DNA of 60,621 nucleotides from Elusimicrobiota bacterium (lineage in GTDB: Bacteria; Elusimicrobiota; Endomicrobiia; Endomicrobiales; Endomicrobiaceae), in assembly GCA_017528425.1 (NCBI GenBank), contig JAFXOV010000050.1, positions 1 to 60,621 of the forward strand, read 5' to 3'. Shown piece after piece: positions 12,720-25,643 of the stretch (position 1 is the first letter of the stretch; the number at the start of each line of letters is the position of its first letter). The notes beneath the pieces are model-generated. The model saw nothing but the letters and a program-made list of their open reading frames with translations, had not been told where the DNA came from and did not search any database. Made by a program: the position numbers and the translations under genes.

Positions 12720-14630
12720 TTATTTTATTCCCTCTTTAATCCAATTTAACAAACCGCCGGCAAACAATATTTCTTTTTGTCTTTCGGTAAAACTGTAATT
12801 CAATTTAATATTTTTACCGTTAACGGTTATAACCAAATCTTTATTTTCTTTTATAATATTCTTTATGTCTTTAAACTCTATTTTATCTGCAAGTTTTATC
12901 AATTCGTAGTCATTAACATTGTCGAATGTTAACGGAATAATTCCGAAATTTATTAAGTTTGCCAAATGTATTCTTGCAAATGTTTTTGTAATAACAACTT
13001 TTATTCCCAAATATCTCGGGGCAAGTGCGGCATGTTCTCTTGAAGAACCCTGCCCGTAATTTTCCGCTCCTACTATAACTCCGTTTTTAACGGATTTTGC
13101 CCTTGCAACAAAATCTTTATCTACAGCACCGAAAGTATGTTCCGATATTGCGGGCAAATTAGATCTTAAAGGCAATATCTTTGCACCTGCCGGCAATATA
13201 TGGTCGGTAGAAATATTGTCACCGACTTTCAAAACCACATCTGCCGAAATTGAATCCGGCATCGGTTCGAATTTCGGTAACGGTTTTATATTAGGTCCTC
13301 TGACAATTTCCCCTTCATTGGAAGGTTTTTGGAAATGGTCATCATTAATATAAAAACTGTCCGGCAAACTTATTTTAGGTTTTGCACCGAACAAAGCTGT
13401 AGGATCTGTTATTTCTCCGGTTAAAGCTGCAGCCAAAGCAACTTCCGGTGAACACAAATAAACTTGAGCATCTTTTGTTCCGCTTCTGCCTTCAAAGTTT
13501 CTGTTAAATGTTCTTAAAGAAACAGCTTTAGTTTTTGGAGCTTGTCCCATACCGATACATGGTCCGCAAGCACATTCCAATATTCTTGCACCGGCATTAA
13601 TTATGTTAAACAATTTACCGGAACTTGCAAGCATTGAAAATACTTGTCTTGATCCCGGAGAAATCGTTAAACTTGTATTTTTGTTTATCTTTTTATCTTT
13701 TAATGTTTCTGCACATAACATCATATCCGCATAAGATGAATTTGTGCAGGAACCGATACAAACCTGATCAACTTTTGTTCCTTTCAAATCTTTAACTTTT
13801 TTTACATTATCGGGGCTGTGAGGCATAGCAATTAACGGTTCAAGTTCGGATAAATTTATTGCCAATTCATCATCGTATGTTGCATCGGAATCGGCAACCA
13901 TTTCAACCCAATCTTTTTCTCTGTTTTGTCTTTTCAAAAAGTCTTTTGTTATTTCGTCCGAAGGGAATATTGTAGTTGTTGCACCGAGTTCCGTTCCCAT
14001 ATTTGTAATTGTTGCTCTTTCGGGAACAGACAAAGTTTTAACACCTTCACCTGCGAACTCAAATATTTTTCCTCTTCCGCCTTTAACGGACAATATTCTT
14101 AAAAGCTCAAGAATTATATCTTTTGCACTTACCCAATCTCTTAATTTTCCGGTTAAATTAACTTTAACTATTTTAGGCATTGTTATATAAAAAGGCTGCC
14201 CTGCCATGGCACATGCAACATCAAGTCCGCCCGCTCCGAAAGCAAGCATACCGATACCGCCACCGGTAGGAGTATGAGAGTCTGAACCTATCAATGTTTT
14301 ACCCGGAACACCGAATCTTTCCAAATGTACCTGATGGCAAATTCCGTTACCTGCAGGTGAAAAAACTATCCCGTGCTTATTTGCTATAGTTTGTAAAAAT
14401 TTATGATCATCGGCATTTTCAAAACCGGACTGCAATGTGTTATGGTCAACATAACTTACCGAAAGTTCCGTTTTTACTTTAGGAACGTTCATTGCTTCAA
14501 ACTGTAAATATGCCATAGTTCCTGTTGCATCCTGAGTTAACGTCTGATCTATCTTTAATGCAACTTCACTGCCTACTTCCATTGATCCCGAAACCAAATG
14601 CTTTTTAATAATTTTCCTTGCTAAATTCAT
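12720..14630 (-). CDS. acn: Aconitate hydratase (short bacterial type)
   Basis: 636 aa; interconverts citrate and isocitrate through a [4Fe-4S] cluster. Cluster cysteines are Cys295 (CIGSCTNSS) and Cys355/Cys358 (ECACGPCIGMGQAP). SDSHTPTGGGIGMLAFGAGG lies in the N-terminal part, and the swivelling domain with GQGSSREHAALAPR in the C-terminal third. At about 640 residues it is shorter than E. coli AcnA or AcnB and like the putative aconitases of Aquifex and clostridia. Homoaconitase or LeuC-like use is possible given the nearby leuD without leuC, but the fused swivelling domain argues for aconitase. The ribosome-binding site is CGGAG. Confidence 0.88.
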   Translation of the reverse strand: MNLARKIIKKHLVSGSMEVGSEVALKIDQTLTQDATGTMAYLQFEAMNVPKVKTELSVSYVDHNTLQSGFENADDHKFLQTIANKHGIVFSPAGNGICHQVHLERFGVPGKTLIGSDSHTPTGGGIGMLAFGAGGLDVACAMAGQPFYITMPKIVKVNLTGKLRDWVSAKDIILELLRILSVKGGRGKIFEFAGEGVKTLSVPERATITNMGTELGATTTIFPSDEITKDFLKRQNREKDWVEMVADSDATYDDELAINLSELEPLIAMPHSPDNVKKVKDLKGTKVDQVCIGSCTNSSYADMMLCAETLKDKKINKNTSLTISPGSRQVFSMLASSGKLFNIINAGARILECACGPCIGMGQAPKTKAVSLRTFNRNFEGRSGTKDAQVYLCSPEVALAAALTGEITDPTALFGAKPKISLPDSFYINDDHFQKPSNEGEIVRGPNIKPLPKFEPMPDSISADVVLKVGDNISTDHILPAGAKILPLRSNLPAISEHTFGAVDKDFVARAKSVKNGVIVGAENYGQGSSREHAALAPRYLGIKVVITKTFARIHLANLINFGIIPLTFDNVNDYELIKLADKIEFKDIKNIIKENKDLVITVNGKNIKLNYSFTERQKEILFAGGLLNWIKEGIK

Positions 14631-21045: not shown

Positions 21046-21075
21046 TTGACAAAAGATGAATTTTTATAGTATCAT
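21046..21075 (+). promoter_or_regulatory. Promoter for thiS-thiG-thiH
   Basis: TTGACA (21046-21051), 18 nt, TATCAT (21070-21075). The predicted start point, near 21082, is just before the structured leader at 21090. Confidence 0.7.
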
Positions 21076-21089
21076 AAATTATCATTTTA

Positions 21090-21154
21090 AATAGAATATG
21101 TTATGGGGGTCACCACCTCGGGTGGCAAAAACTTCATTCATATTCTATTTTTTT
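21090..21154 (+). promoter_or_regulatory. Candidate HMP-PP riboswitch (thiS motif) embedded in a terminator
   Basis: An 11-bp perfect outer stem (21090-21100 with 21139-21149) is followed directly by seven T (21148-21154), an intrinsic terminator ending just before the thiS ribosome-binding site AAGGAG. Inside are GGGGG, a CCACC/GGTGG hairpin (21113-21117 with 21121-21125) and an A-rich strand CAAAAACTTC. A tiny aptamer nested in the terminator stem directly ahead of thiS is the described design of the HMP-PP riboswitch (thiS-motif RNA). The usual TPP riboswitch core (CUGAGA, ACC...GAUCUGG) is absent. The class call rests on architecture and location; I could not align it to the known consensus. 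Confidence 0.72.
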
Positions 21155-21168
21155 ATTAAGGAGTTAAA

Positions 21169-21363
21169 ATGAAAGTTAACGGAAAAGAAGTTGTTATAAA
21201 AGAATCGCAAACTATATACGAATACTTAAAAAACAACAATTACAATTTGGAACGAATTGTAATTGAGTTAAACGGTAAAATTATTTCTAAAGATAAATAT
21301 AACACTGTAAATTTAAAAGATACGGATGTTATGGAAGTGCTGACTTTTGTCGGCGGCGGCTAA
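21169..21363 (+). CDS. thiS: Sulfur carrier protein ThiS
   Basis: 64 aa, ubiquitin-like beta-grasp protein ending in VGGG. The C-terminal Gly-Gly tail is thiocarboxylated and donates sulfur to thiazole synthase. A strong AAGGAG ribosome-binding site lies 5 nt before the ATG. It is the first gene behind the leader RNA. No thiF adenylyltransferase is in the window. Confidence 0.95.
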   Translation: MKVNGKEVVIKESQTIYEYLKNNNYNLERIVIELNGKIISKDKYNTVNLKDTDVMEVLTFVGGG

Positions 21364-21382
21364 AAAAATGCAAAGCATTTTT
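21364..21382. repeat. Mini palindrome (GCAAAGC type) between thiS and thiG
   Basis: AAAAATGC-AAA-GCATTTTT, perfect 8-bp arms. It starts right after the thiS stop and is one of six such palindromes in the window. An AT-rich tract of repeated AATGTA/ACAATG words follows (21384-21415). Confidence 0.6.
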
Positions 21383-21453
21383 AATGTACAATGTATAATG
21401 TACAATTTATAATTCTTTTCAAATGAAAATTTTAAAAGAACTTGAGGAGATAT

Positions 21454-22233
21454 ATGATGGAAAATAACGATCAATTAATAATTGCAGGACATAAGTTTTC
21501 TTCTCGATTCATTTTGGGTTCGGGAAAATTTTCGTTGGATTTGGTAAAAGCTGCGGTTGAATCGGCAGGTGCGGAAATCGTAACACTTGCATTAAGACGA
21601 GCAAACACTAAAACAGAATACAACATATTAGATTTTATACCTAAAACGGTAACTCTTTTACCTAACACTTCAGGTGCAAGAACCGCGGAAGAAGCAGTTA
21701 GAATCGCAAGACTTTCCAGAGAACTCGGGTGCGGAGATTTTGTAAAAATTGAAGTCATAAAAGATACAAAATTTTTGTTGCCTGATAACTACGAAACAAT
21801 AAAAGCAACGGAAATTCTTGCAAAAGAAGGGTTTGTTGTAATGCCTTACATGTATCCGGACTTAAATGCCGCAAGAGATTTGGCAAATGCGGGTGCTGCA
21901 ACAATTATGCCGCTTGCCGCACCTATCGGCAGCAACTTGGGTCTTCTCACAAAACATTTTATTAAAATCATTATAGATGAAATAAAGTTGCCTGTAATTG
22001 TTGATGCAGGTATCGGGTCACCTTCTCAAGCTTGCGAAATTATGCAGGAAGGTGCTGCCGCCGTTATGGTAAATACAGCAATTGCAACTGCCAAAAACAT
22101 AAACGAAATGGCAGAAGCTTTCAAACTTGCAATTATCGCAGGGAGAAAAGCTTATCTTGCAGGGCTCGGCAGAGTACTTAATTTTAAAGCGGAAGCGTCC
22201 AGTCCTTTGATAGACTTTTTGGAGGACAAATAA
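21454..22233 (+). CDS. thiG: Thiazole synthase
   Basis: About 259 aa. It condenses 1-deoxyxylulose-5-phosphate, dehydroglycine and ThiS thiocarboxylate into the thiazole phosphate. TIM-barrel motifs: [29 protein letters not shown] with the likely Schiff-base lysine, [13 protein letters not shown], and [28 protein letters not shown]. The upstream TTG at 21442 overlaps the GAGGAG ribosome-binding site, so the start is ATG 21454 or 21457. thiH follows after 1 bp. Confidence 0.95.
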
Positions 22234-22234
22234 A

Positions 22235-23365
22235 ATGTTTTATAAAAACATGGAACAAATAAACTCCGATATGTTGGAACAAGTGTTAAGTTTAACCAAG
22301 GGCTATGATTATAATATATATACGGAAAACGATGTTCAAAAAACATTAAACAAAGAAATTTTGGATATTGAAGATTTAAAAGTTTTGTTATCTCCAGCAG
22401 CAACGGATTTTTTAAATTTAATCGCACATAAAGCACAATACGAAACAAGAAAACATTTCGGGTCAAGTATATCTTTGTTTACTCCGCTATACATTTCAAA
22501 TTATTGTGAAAATCAGTGCACATATTGCGGATATAATTGTAAAAACAATATACACAGAGGAAAACTTACAATTGAAGAAACAGAAAAAGAATTTAAAGCA
22601 ATATCTCAAACGGGACTTGAAGATATTCTTATACTTACAGGCGAATCAAGATCCGCATCAAGTGTAGAATATATAGGTGAAGCCGTAAAACTTGCAAAAA
22701 AATATTTTTCTTCCATATCAATAGAAATTTATCCGTTAAATACGGACGAATATAAATATCTCTGTCAATGCGGAGCGGATTTTGTTTGTGTTTATCAGGA
22801 AACTTACAACAAAGAAAGATATAAACAGTTACATTCGGCAGGACCTAAATCTGTTTTTGAATACAGATTTTATGCTCAGGAAAGAGCAGCACTTGCAGGT
22901 ATGAGAGGTGTATCTTTGGGAATACTTTTCGGGTTAGATGATTTCAGAAAAGATGCTTTTTCCACCGCCATTCATGCTTATTTGTTGCAACAAAAGTATC
23001 CTGATCTTAAAATAGGTTTTTCCGTCCCGAGATTAAGGCCGTATATTCACGAGCACAAAGAACAAAACCCTCACTATGTTAATGAAAAGCAATTGTTCCA
23101 GGCATTGTGTGCTTACAGATTATTTATGCCGTTTTCCGATATTACAATTTCCACAAGAGAAAGAGCAGGTTTCAGAGATAATGTTATAGGTGTATGTGCA
23201 ACAAAAATTTCGGCAGGTGTAAAAACTTCCGTAGGCGGACATAAAGACGAAGCTAAGGGTGACGAACAGTTTGAAATTTCCGATTCAAGAACAGTTGCGG
23301 AAATCGTAGATACGATAAAGCAAAAAGGCCTTTATCCGGTATTCAGCAACCACATACGACTTTAA
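22235..23365 (+). CDS. thiH: 2-iminoacetate synthase (tyrosine lyase)
   Basis: 376 aa radical SAM enzyme that splits tyrosine into p-cresol and dehydroglycine for ThiG. This oxygen-sensitive route is the anaerobic alternative to glycine oxidase ThiO. The cluster motif is Cys91-x3-Cys95-x2-Cys98 (YCENQCTYCGY). The C-terminal ISTRERAGFRDNV, ISAGVKTSVGGH and the thiazole-biosynthesis C-terminal region are present. Last gene of thiS-thiG-thiH. Confidence 0.95.
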   Translation: MFYKNMEQINSDMLEQVLSLTKGYDYNIYTENDVQKTLNKEILDIEDLKVLLSPAATDFLNLIAHKAQYETRKHFGSSISLFTPLYISNYCENQCTYCGYNCKNNIHRGKLTIEETEKEFKAISQTGLEDILILTGESRSASSVEYIGEAVKLAKKYFSSISIEIYPLNTDEYKYLCQCGADFVCVYQETYNKERYKQLHSAGPKSVFEYRFYAQERAALAGMRGVSLGILFGLDDFRKDAFSTAIHAYLLQQKYPDLKIGFSVPRLRPYIHEHKEQNPHYVNEKQLFQALCAYRLFMPFSDITISTRERAGFRDNVIGVCATKISAGVKTSVGGHKDEAKGDEQFEISDSRTVAEIVDTIKQKGLYPVFSNHIRL

Positions 23366-23406
23366 ACAACAATGTATAATGTACAATGTAAAATGTATAA
23401 TTAAAT

Positions 23407-23441
23407 AAAAAAACGGGAAGAAATTTCTTCCTGTTTTTTTT
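23407..23441 (+). terminator. Intrinsic terminator after thiH
   Basis: AACGGGAAGAAA and TTTCTTCCTGTT pair (one G-U) and are followed by eight T. Near-identical hairpins lie at 25748 and 29020. An AT-rich tract of AATGTATAATG words (23370-23402) precedes it. Confidence 0.75.
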
Positions 23442-23589: not shown

Positions 23590-24198
23590 TTATAGAGCAA
23601 ATTTGTATCCTACATTAATTGTTGTTGCTGTATATTGTAAATCAGCTGTATTTCCATTAATAGACAAACTGCCGTTAGCTGAAGATATTAACAATTCAAC
23701 TATAACACAATCTTTTATTATCGTTCCTGCACCGAAACCTAAATATATTCCCATATCTGCAGTTTCAGATTTACCATTTGCTTCCACAATAATACTGCTT
23801 CCGCCGATTTGACCTATTAAATATAAGCTTGTAAAAATATCGGATTCTATTTTAGCTTCAGGTTTTACTGCCAAATAAAAGTTAACTGTTTTTGCTTCGG
23901 GCTTGGAACCTTCCATATTGGCCTTACTGTTAGAACCAAAATTATAATTTATACCTGCACCTACAGACAACATATCCATTAATCCGTAAAAAAATTCCGC
24001 ACCTATTGAAATAGGCATTTCCATATCGTAACCTTGAGAAAGGCCATCCGGCATACCATGATAACCGTTAGCATGATAATTTAAATTATTGCTTACTCCC
24101 AAACCTAATTTTCCGTTGATAGACATATCACCTTTTTGTGCAAACACAGGTGCTACCATTGCTACTGCTAATATTACTGCCAATAAACTTTTTTTCAT
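23590..24198 (-). CDS. Small outer-membrane beta-barrel protein (paralogue 1)
   Basis: 202 aa with a clear signal peptide (MKKSLLAVILAVAMVAPVFA, cleavage after about residue 20). The mature part alternates polar and hydrophobic residues in Gly- and aromatic-rich strands (LGLGVSNN, ISIGAEFFYGLMDMLSVGAGINYNF) and ends INVGYKFAL, typical of the terminal strand of an 8-strand barrel. It is closely related to the product at 24325-24972, with shared segments such as the GAEFFYGLMD stretch and the C-terminus, and more distantly to that at 29109-29672. Function unknown; such porin or OmpW/OmpA-barrel-like proteins often bind or anchor surface partners. Ribosome-binding site AAGGAG. Confidence 0.8.
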   Translation of the reverse strand: MKKSLLAVILAVAMVAPVFAQKGDMSINGKLGLGVSNNLNYHANGYHGMPDGLSQGYDMEMPISIGAEFFYGLMDMLSVGAGINYNFGSNSKANMEGSKPEAKTVNFYLAVKPEAKIESDIFTSLYLIGQIGGSSIIVEANGKSETADMGIYLGFGAGTIIKDCVIVELLISSANGSLSINGNTADLQYTATTINVGYKFAL

Positions 24199-24324: not shown

Positions 24325-24972
24325 TTACAATGCAAATTTGTAACCTACATTAATTGTTGTTGCTGTATATTGTACATCAAGATCTGCAGGTACAGCAGGA
24401 GGAATCTTTTTCGCTGTTAAGTTAGCAGAAGAGCATACAATTTCCACAAAGACACAATCCATTATTGTTGTTCCTATACCGAACCCCAAATATAGACCAC
24501 TATTTACATCTAGTGATGGGAAATCCCAATCATCACTCTCAATTTCAGCTCTTGCCATTGCCAAACCGATTTGACCTACTAAGTATATGCTTGAAAATAT
24601 TTTGGAATCTATTTTTGCTTCAGGTTTAACTGCCAAATATATGTTTGTTGTTCCTGCCTTAAGTTGATTTTCGAAAGGAGCATGTGCTACATTGTTATTT
24701 TTTGATTTTGAATCAAAACCATAGTTCACACCTAAACCAACCGACAAGTTATCCATTAATCCGTAAAAAAATTCCGCACCTATTGAAACAGGCATTTCCA
24801 TATCATATTTATAATACTGATTTTTCGGGGCTAACACGTCGGACCCATCCAGTGATACACTATTATTTATTCCCAAACCTAACTTTGCATTAACAGACAT
24901 ATCTCCTTTTGCTGCAAATGCAGGTACTGCCATTGCTACTGCCAACAACACTGCAAACAATCCTTTTTTCAT
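24325..24972 (-). CDS. Small outer-membrane beta-barrel protein (paralogue 2)
   Basis: 215 aa, signal peptide MKKGLFAVLLAVAMAVPAFA, then barrel strands and the same terminal VQYTATTINVGYKFAL end as paralogue 1, 126 bp downstream. The strand framework is conserved while putative surface loops differ (SLDGSDVLAPKNQYYK against HANGYHGMPDG), as expected for duplicated surface proteins under loop divergence. It has a strong promoter and an AGGAGG ribosome-binding site, so high expression is likely. Confidence 0.8.
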   Translation of the reverse strand: MKKGLFAVLLAVAMAVPAFAAKGDMSVNAKLGLGINNSVSLDGSDVLAPKNQYYKYDMEMPVSIGAEFFYGLMDNLSVGLGVNYGFDSKSKNNNVAHAPFENQLKAGTTNIYLAVKPEAKIDSKIFSSIYLVGQIGLAMARAEIESDDWDFPSLDVNSGLYLGFGIGTTIMDCVFVEIVCSSANLTAKKIPPAVPADLDVQYTATTINVGYKFAL

Positions 24973-25049: not shown

Positions 25050-25643
25050 ATGAAAACCGTTTGTATAACCAACCGACTATTATGTAAAAATGATTTTTTT
25101 GAACAAATAGAATATATTTGCAAACAAAATCTTTATGCTTTGATTCTTAGAGAAAAAGATTTGGATGATAAAACCTACGAAGAGTTTGCCGTTAAATGTA
25201 ATGATATATGCACTAAAAACAACGTTTTATTTTTTATAAACACCAAAATACATATTGCACAAAAATTGAAAATTAAAAATATTCAAGTTTCATTTGAAAA
25301 TTTTGTGAACAATAAAGAAAGTTTAAATTCTTTTGATACCGTTGCTGTCTCGGTACATTCGTTAAGTGAAGCGCTAACCGTACAAAAATTTGTTGAAGAA
25401 ACAAGCCAAAATATTTTTCTTATTGCAGGCCATATTTTTGAAACGGATTGCAAAAAAGGATTAGAACCGAGAGGTATAGAATTTTTAAAAGAGATTTGTG
25501 CCAATGTAGAAATTCCCGTATTTGCAATAGGCGGAATAAACCAAAACACAATAAAACAACTAAAAGGTATAAATATCGAAGGTGTATGTTTGATGTCGGA
25601 ATTGATGAAAAAATCGCAAAGCGATTTTTTAGATAATTTATAA
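25050..25643 (+). CDS. thiE: Thiamine-phosphate synthase family protein (ThiE/TenI)
   Basis: 197 aa TIM-barrel protein. ITNR near the start, LILREKDLDD and the C-terminal IPVFAIGGINQNTIKQL are ThiE/TenI marks; GHIFETDCKKG replaces the usual GPxFxTxTK loop. ThiE joins HMP-PP and thiazole phosphate, so it would use the ligand proposed for the thiS leader. TenI-type proteins instead aromatise the thiazole, and with this divergence that remains possible. No clear ribosome-binding site is seen. The last codons (KKSQSDF) are read from a perfect GCAAAGC-type palindrome. Confidence 0.78.
   Translation: MKTVCITNRLLCKNDFFEQIEYICKQNLYALILREKDLDDKTYEEFAVKCNDICTKNNVLFFINTKIHIAQKLKIKNIQVSFENFVNNKESLNSFDTVAVSVHSLSEALTVQKFVEETSQNIFLIAGHIFETDCKKGLEPRGIEFLKEICANVEIPVFAIGGINQNTIKQLKGINIEGVCLMSELMKKSQSDFLDNL
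25608..25630. repeat. Mini palindrome inside the thiE 3' end
   Basis: AAAAAATCGC-AAA-GCGATTTTTT, perfect 10-bp arms, lying within the last codons of thiE. Same type as the intergenic copies at 21364, 27714, 28915, 33712 and 33778. Confidence 0.6.

Follow-up and report, generated by a model that had tools for sequence, protein, structure and literature searches.

Does the hairpin that stands directly ahead of thiS in a bacterium of the phylum Elusimicrobiota simply stop transcription, or does it also carry a sensor for a precursor of thiamine? The hairpin was found in a stretch of 60,621 nucleotides, analysed whole and called here the window. Its host belongs to Candidatus Ruminimicrobiellum (Endomicrobiaceae), a rumen genus of that family (PMC11257099). 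The reading favored here, to which a probability of about 0.87 is assigned, is that the leader belongs to the HMP-PP riboswitch class (the thiS motif), that it acts as an ON switch on thiSGH, and that operon and switch probably came from Clostridia. This reading builds on features observed here: the anatomy of the leader, the class membership of its core, the covariation in the class, the gene context, and the position of ThiG among the Bacillota.

Anatomy of the leader

Positions 21046-21168 of the window hold, in this order, a promoter (TTGACA-18-TATCAT), a short leader, a hairpin followed by seven T residues (T7), and a ribosome-binding site, after which thiS begins at 21169. The promoter is sigma-70-like (21046-21075, on the forward strand, as are all parts of the leader and operon given below). 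Its two boxes, TTGACA (21046-21051) and TATCAT (21070-21075), match at 11 of 12 positions, are separated by an 18-nt spacer, and are conserved in relatives. From the promoter spacing, transcription is predicted to start at about 21081-21083.

Within the RNA, the 5' arm of the lower terminator stem, AAATAGAATATG (21089-21100), folds and is kept in the genus. It is followed by AUGGGG (21103-21108), whose conserved G-run corresponds to nucleotides 24-27 of the published C. sp. Maddingley RNA and is invariant in alignments A2 and A3. The P2 hairpin comes next, GUCACC-ACCUCG-GGUGGC (21109-21126; 18 nt, loop ACCUCG), indicated alike by the fold, by class covariation and by a covariance model. An AAAAA insert (21127-21131), 3-5 nt long in the genus, separates P2 from the 3' side of the terminator (21132-21150), which consists of CUUCAU, a single unpaired U, and CATATTCTATTT. 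The T7 run occupies 21148-21154. In the predicted OFF state, AUGGGG pairs with CUUCAU in a helix that includes two G-U wobbles; in the ON state, the G-run would instead pair with C35-C36 of the loop. Beneath the OFF-state helix lie a UU/U internal loop and the AT-rich lower stem, AAATAGAATATG / CATATTCTATTT.

Intrinsic terminators are recognised by a strong stem and six or more U; here, the lower stem has 12 base pairs and is followed by T7. A preliminary description of this DNA had spoken of an 11-bp stem plus T7. The T-run stands as described; the stem comes to 12 pairs by fold. The same description had placed a nested core, GGGGG/CCACC-GGTGG, inside the terminator stem, directly ahead of thiS; sequence and fold bear this out and show there a conserved core of G-run, P2 and loop. 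Folding the 130-nt region gives a minimum free energy of -29.7 kcal/mol; dinucleotide shuffles give -17.9 +/- 3.2 (z -3.7), and none of 200 reached so low a value. The window holds a single copy of the core pattern, GGGGNNYACCACCNNGGGYR, and not one of 100 shuffles contains it. Short repeats resembling AATGTATAATGTACAATTTATAAT lie in the intergenic DNA around the operon (21380-21410 and 23368-23400), and are found in relatives as well.

Assignment to the HMP-PP riboswitch class

The published work on the C. sp. Maddingley RNA provides a numbering against which the window can be read. There, G24-27 form G-U wobbles with nucleotides 46-49, the loop comprises nucleotides 35-39, and G26 and C35 are needed and are the proposed partners of a pseudoknot (PMC6478431). 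Because the wobbles take up 24-27 and 46-49, nucleotides 28-45, 18 in all, remain for P2. In the window, exactly 18 nt follow the four G, and the first C of CCUCG falls at position 35. The nucleotides that would form the G26-C35 pair, G21107 and C21116 in the window, are invariant in all eleven leader copies (L001-L011) at loci located through ThiG; the pairing itself is predicted.

An independent covariance model, R1, was built from 61 copies from outside the Elusimicrobia, nearly all from Clostridia or Actinobacteria and mostly upstream of thiazole genes; its alignment is our own, distinct from that of the authors of the class. R1 matches the window at 21087-21153 with 38.2 bits (E 6.2e-6), the sole match in the 2.08 Mb genome. 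Across 120 relatives, matches were found in 11, each at a thi operon. Of the copies located through ThiG, those of the genus score 38-48 bits and the two from another genus 63.4 (L010) and 61.4 bits (L011). The assignment to the thiS motif made in the preliminary description is thus supported from three sides: the covariance model, the one-to-one agreement with the published numbering of P2 and G-run, and a gene context typical of the class. By its sequence, the leader is a bona fide member of this known class, one whose P1 is reduced and which carries an insert of 3-5 nt.

A scan with Rfam 15 returned no thiS-motif match in the window leader, nor in 18 loci where clear class members stand beside thi genes; Rfam 15 seems to hold no thiS-motif family. 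Because those 18 loci were also unmatched, the missing match is not counted against membership. Sub-threshold matches of the leader to cow-rumen-4 (19.7 bits, cut-off 48.5) and freshwater-2 (15.5 bits, cut-off 49.9) were taken as chance. The TPP riboswitch is, as had been proposed, absent: RF00059 has no match anywhere in the genome, the window included, and a covariance search of 11 genomes from the genus found no TPP aptamer, while the same search was positive in 10 of 14 control genomes.

The wider class was sampled by scanning some 85,000 species genomes with the core pattern, which returned at least 120 stretches. The matches listed are nearly all from Clostridia and other Firmicutes, with a few from Actinobacteria; this is also the published distribution (PMC6429828). 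Among these listed matches, 68 of 89 downstream open reading frames match ThiS, and others match ThiG, ThiF, ThiW, hydroxyethylthiazole kinase or a thiamine-binding protein. Since the pattern itself dictated some of the core letters, evidence was taken only from the positions it left variable. Here, the two outer P2 pairs, which the pattern left free, covary without a mismatch (outermost pair: UA 33, CG 20, GC 7, AU 1), and the lower stem covaries strongly. Over the whole structure, 89% of cells are paired, compared with 76% after shuffling and 39-56% after sliding. Three loci in a subset of 18 carry a TPP riboswitch immediately 5' of the thiS motif, an arrangement described for the class.

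The core also stands before thiS or thiG in metagenome-assembled genomes labelled Gastranaerophilales, Desulfovibrionaceae, Lentisphaerae and Kiritimatiellae (L054 4546-4588, L087 965-1011, L093 766-811, L110 6877-6922, L144 ~5660), where binning errors are possible.

The operon and the thiamine pathway of the host

Three genes follow the leader. These are thiS, for a sulfur carrier protein (21169-21363; TIGR01683, 69 bits, cut-off 37.5), thiG, for thiazole synthase (21457-22233; PF05690, 332.8 bits), and thiH, for 2-iminoacetate synthase (22235-23365; TIGR02351, 500.9 bits). The start of thiG was set at an ATG chosen by its ribosome-binding site; the list of open reading frames opens it at a TTG at 21442. 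A gap of 14 nt separates the T-run from the start of thiS, and thiSGH are genes of the thiazole branch, as is usual downstream of the class (e.g., thiS, thiW, thiE).

Downstream, between thiH and a ThiE/TenI-like gene, are two tandem paralogues on the minus strand (23590-24198 and 24325-24972) for small secreted proteins of about 200 amino acids, probably outer-membrane-like. Elsewhere in the window, Rfam SECIS_1 matches the minus strand at 13285-13354 with 38.9 bits (cut-off 35), within an aconitase-like open reading frame that runs uninterrupted; SECIS is a eukaryotic element, and the match is most likely due to chance.

The partner pathway is mostly there. Adjacent thiC and thiE genes, preceded by no recognised leader, are present in the genome, together with thiL, a ThiF-family protein, and the second ThiE/TenI-like gene (25050-25643). 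Canonical ThiD, the HMP-P kinase, was not found in the genome or in 40 relatives, the best matches being far under the cut-off; the same search was positive in 14 of 14 control genomes. One candidate in the genome (19 bits) was rejected as ThiD and is presumably an NAD(P)HX dehydratase-like reading frame. ThiE uses HMP-PP as its substrate. Because ThiE is present, HMP-PP must be made somehow, by an enzyme other than those found. The missing ThiD counts against the favored reading, and points to an unknown HMP-P kinase in the Elusimicrobiota.

Conservation and origin

Leader copies in relatives were located by a ThiG-based search of 100 relatives. The window genome shares this leader with eight close relatives (together L001-L009), and another genus holds a further two copies (L010 and L011). 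Because these loci were found by protein, the conservation of GGGG, CACCACC and GGG among the eleven is unbiased. Around these invariant letters, the structure is kept while the sequence moves: the P2 pair 29-44 is U-G, A-U or G-C, and the lower stem varies with compensation (for example, TTAT/ATTC versus ATGT/GCGT). The L010 and L011 leaders have no A insert and resemble standard members of the class.

In a ThiG tree, the window genus forms a clade with L010 and L011 (100/97), inside a Bacillota ThiG group (98/97); the ThiG of most other Endomicrobiaceae falls apart from it. Since ThiG of the window is nested in a Bacillota clade, operon and switch were probably gained together from Clostridia, and horizontal gain of the thi operon with its switch is the simplest reading of these sequences. 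Two other Endomicrobiaceae genomes (G034 and G028) have a separate Bacillota-type ThiG, with a TPP-like aptamer upstream of the thi operon (L193 3981-4111 and L194 2023-2148) that scores 46 and 44.8 bits, below the Rfam cut-off of 54.3. The thi loci of Fusobacterium, Cetobacterium and Haliovirga were checked as possible sources; two have TPP riboswitches and one has neither switch. A nucleotide search of plasmid records gave no meaningful match.

How the switch might work

Ligand, direction of control, and timing are carried over from published experiments on members of the class, and HMP-PP would, by the same analogy, be the ligand of the window RNA. When no ligand is bound, the G-run would zip with CUUC, the hairpin would close as an intrinsic terminator, and transcription would halt before thiS. 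Were HMP-PP available with RNA polymerase close to the T-run, then G-run and loop (C35, C36) would fold around the ligand atop P2. The G-run so engaged would be withdrawn from the terminator, which would be weaker for it, and thiS-thiG-thiH would be transcribed. Thiazole synthesis would thereby be matched to the supply of its coupling partner.

The part of the class architecture least visible here is P1, the antiterminator stem that in the ON state lies upstream of the G-run and competes with the terminator. Of 115 non-Elusimicrobia copies among the matches listed, 96 are predicted to form it, as, among the relatives, L004 and L006 clearly are; no P1 is predicted for the window RNA, L003 or L008, a point against the favored reading. 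In the window RNA, pairing is possible at five of the seven potential P1 positions, beginning near the predicted 5' end. A P1 formed from CATAA at about 21073-21077 was rejected, as these letters lie before the expected start of transcription. For two clostridial copies, shortening the transcript by 11-13 nt shifts the predicted fold from the terminator to P1 plus P2, as published; no such shift was seen on folding shortened window RNA. When the pairs of the G-run are forbidden, the window hairpin has -18.0 instead of -23.4 kcal/mol, so that 5.4 of 23.4 are lost. Because a hairpin of -18.0 kcal/mol is left, the bound ligand may by itself reduce termination only in part. We infer that the switch works as its class does elsewhere, P1 being weak and the effect coming mostly from the G-run. 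The reduced P1 thus raises a testable question: how much of the published mechanism does switching require?

One answer would be a P1-less HMP-PP variant of hosts without canonical ThiD, in which the bound pseudoknot between G-run and loop alone blocks the zipper, maybe reading another phosphorylation state of HMP; this we consider rather unlikely. Also unlikely is a degenerate member, in which a core derived from Clostridia has lost P1 and serves mainly as a constitutive attenuator, damping thi expression and responding poorly to HMP-PP. The P1 predictions for the window, L003 and L008 would fit this, as would the terminator, intact in all copies. However, the core is invariant across the genus and in a sister lineage, pair 29-44 and the lower stem change with compensation, and in a plain terminator there would be nothing for selection to preserve in G-run and loop.

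The ligand, rather than the response, might instead have shifted, the same architecture now reading HMP-P or some other thiamine precursor. The lack of canonical ThiD in the window genome and 40 relatives and the insert beside the binding site in the genus speak for such a shift, yet every core nucleotide of the HMP-PP class is kept and ThiE, which needs HMP-PP, is present; we regard the shift as very improbable. That the hairpin is an ordinary intrinsic terminator, or a chance hairpin before thiS, can be given almost no weight. R1 does also score ordinary terminators weakly, as with matches of 28.4 bits in L005 and 25 bits at 23407-23441 of the window. These were set aside because they resemble such terminators, score 10-13 bits lower, and are without the core. 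Neither the core pattern, which no shuffle reproduced, nor the folding energy is what chance would deliver, and the same core precedes thi genes in other phyla. An HMP-PP-responsive ON switch of the known class thus stays the preferred reading.

Comparison with known systems

The class, its architecture and its gene context are already known. What is new, as far as the papers examined show, is the phylum, with no earlier report found for the Elusimicrobiota, together with the reduced P1 and a transfer in which the switch apparently accompanied its operon. The class sets of earlier authors are 66% metagenomic, and unlabelled Elusimicrobia copies may therefore already be among the published members.

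Two other kinds of regulator invite comparison. The TPP riboswitch (RF00059) also regulates thiamine genes, and a TPP-like aptamer heads a related thi operon in G034 and G028; the TPP aptamer is absent from the window. Within one bacterial family, an HMP-PP switch governs some thi operons and a TPP switch similar ones. The guanidine-IV riboswitch and the HRC-8-4 motif (PMC8632094) are likewise described as terminator stems whose tips carry conserved nucleotides, and guanidine-IV as an ON switch. Both differ from the window leader in their gene associations, on which the comparison was made.

The closest known relative is the C. sp. Maddingley HMP-PP riboswitch (PMC6478431, PMC6429828). Shared with it are the aptamer embedded in a terminator, GGGG at 24-27, an 18-nt P2 at 28-45, the loop at 35-39, the conserved C35 and C36, the T-run, and the position directly upstream of thiS. 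Unlike that RNA, the window leader has no predicted P1, UAU in place of GAA before the G-run, an AT-rich lower stem, and 3-5 extra nucleotides where P2 gives way to the 3' arm. It also differs in its host, an elusimicrobiote, the hosts reported for the class being Firmicutes, Actinobacteria and unassigned metagenomes. A small riboswitch class is thereby extended to another phylum, in what is apparently a case of a regulator travelling with its operon.
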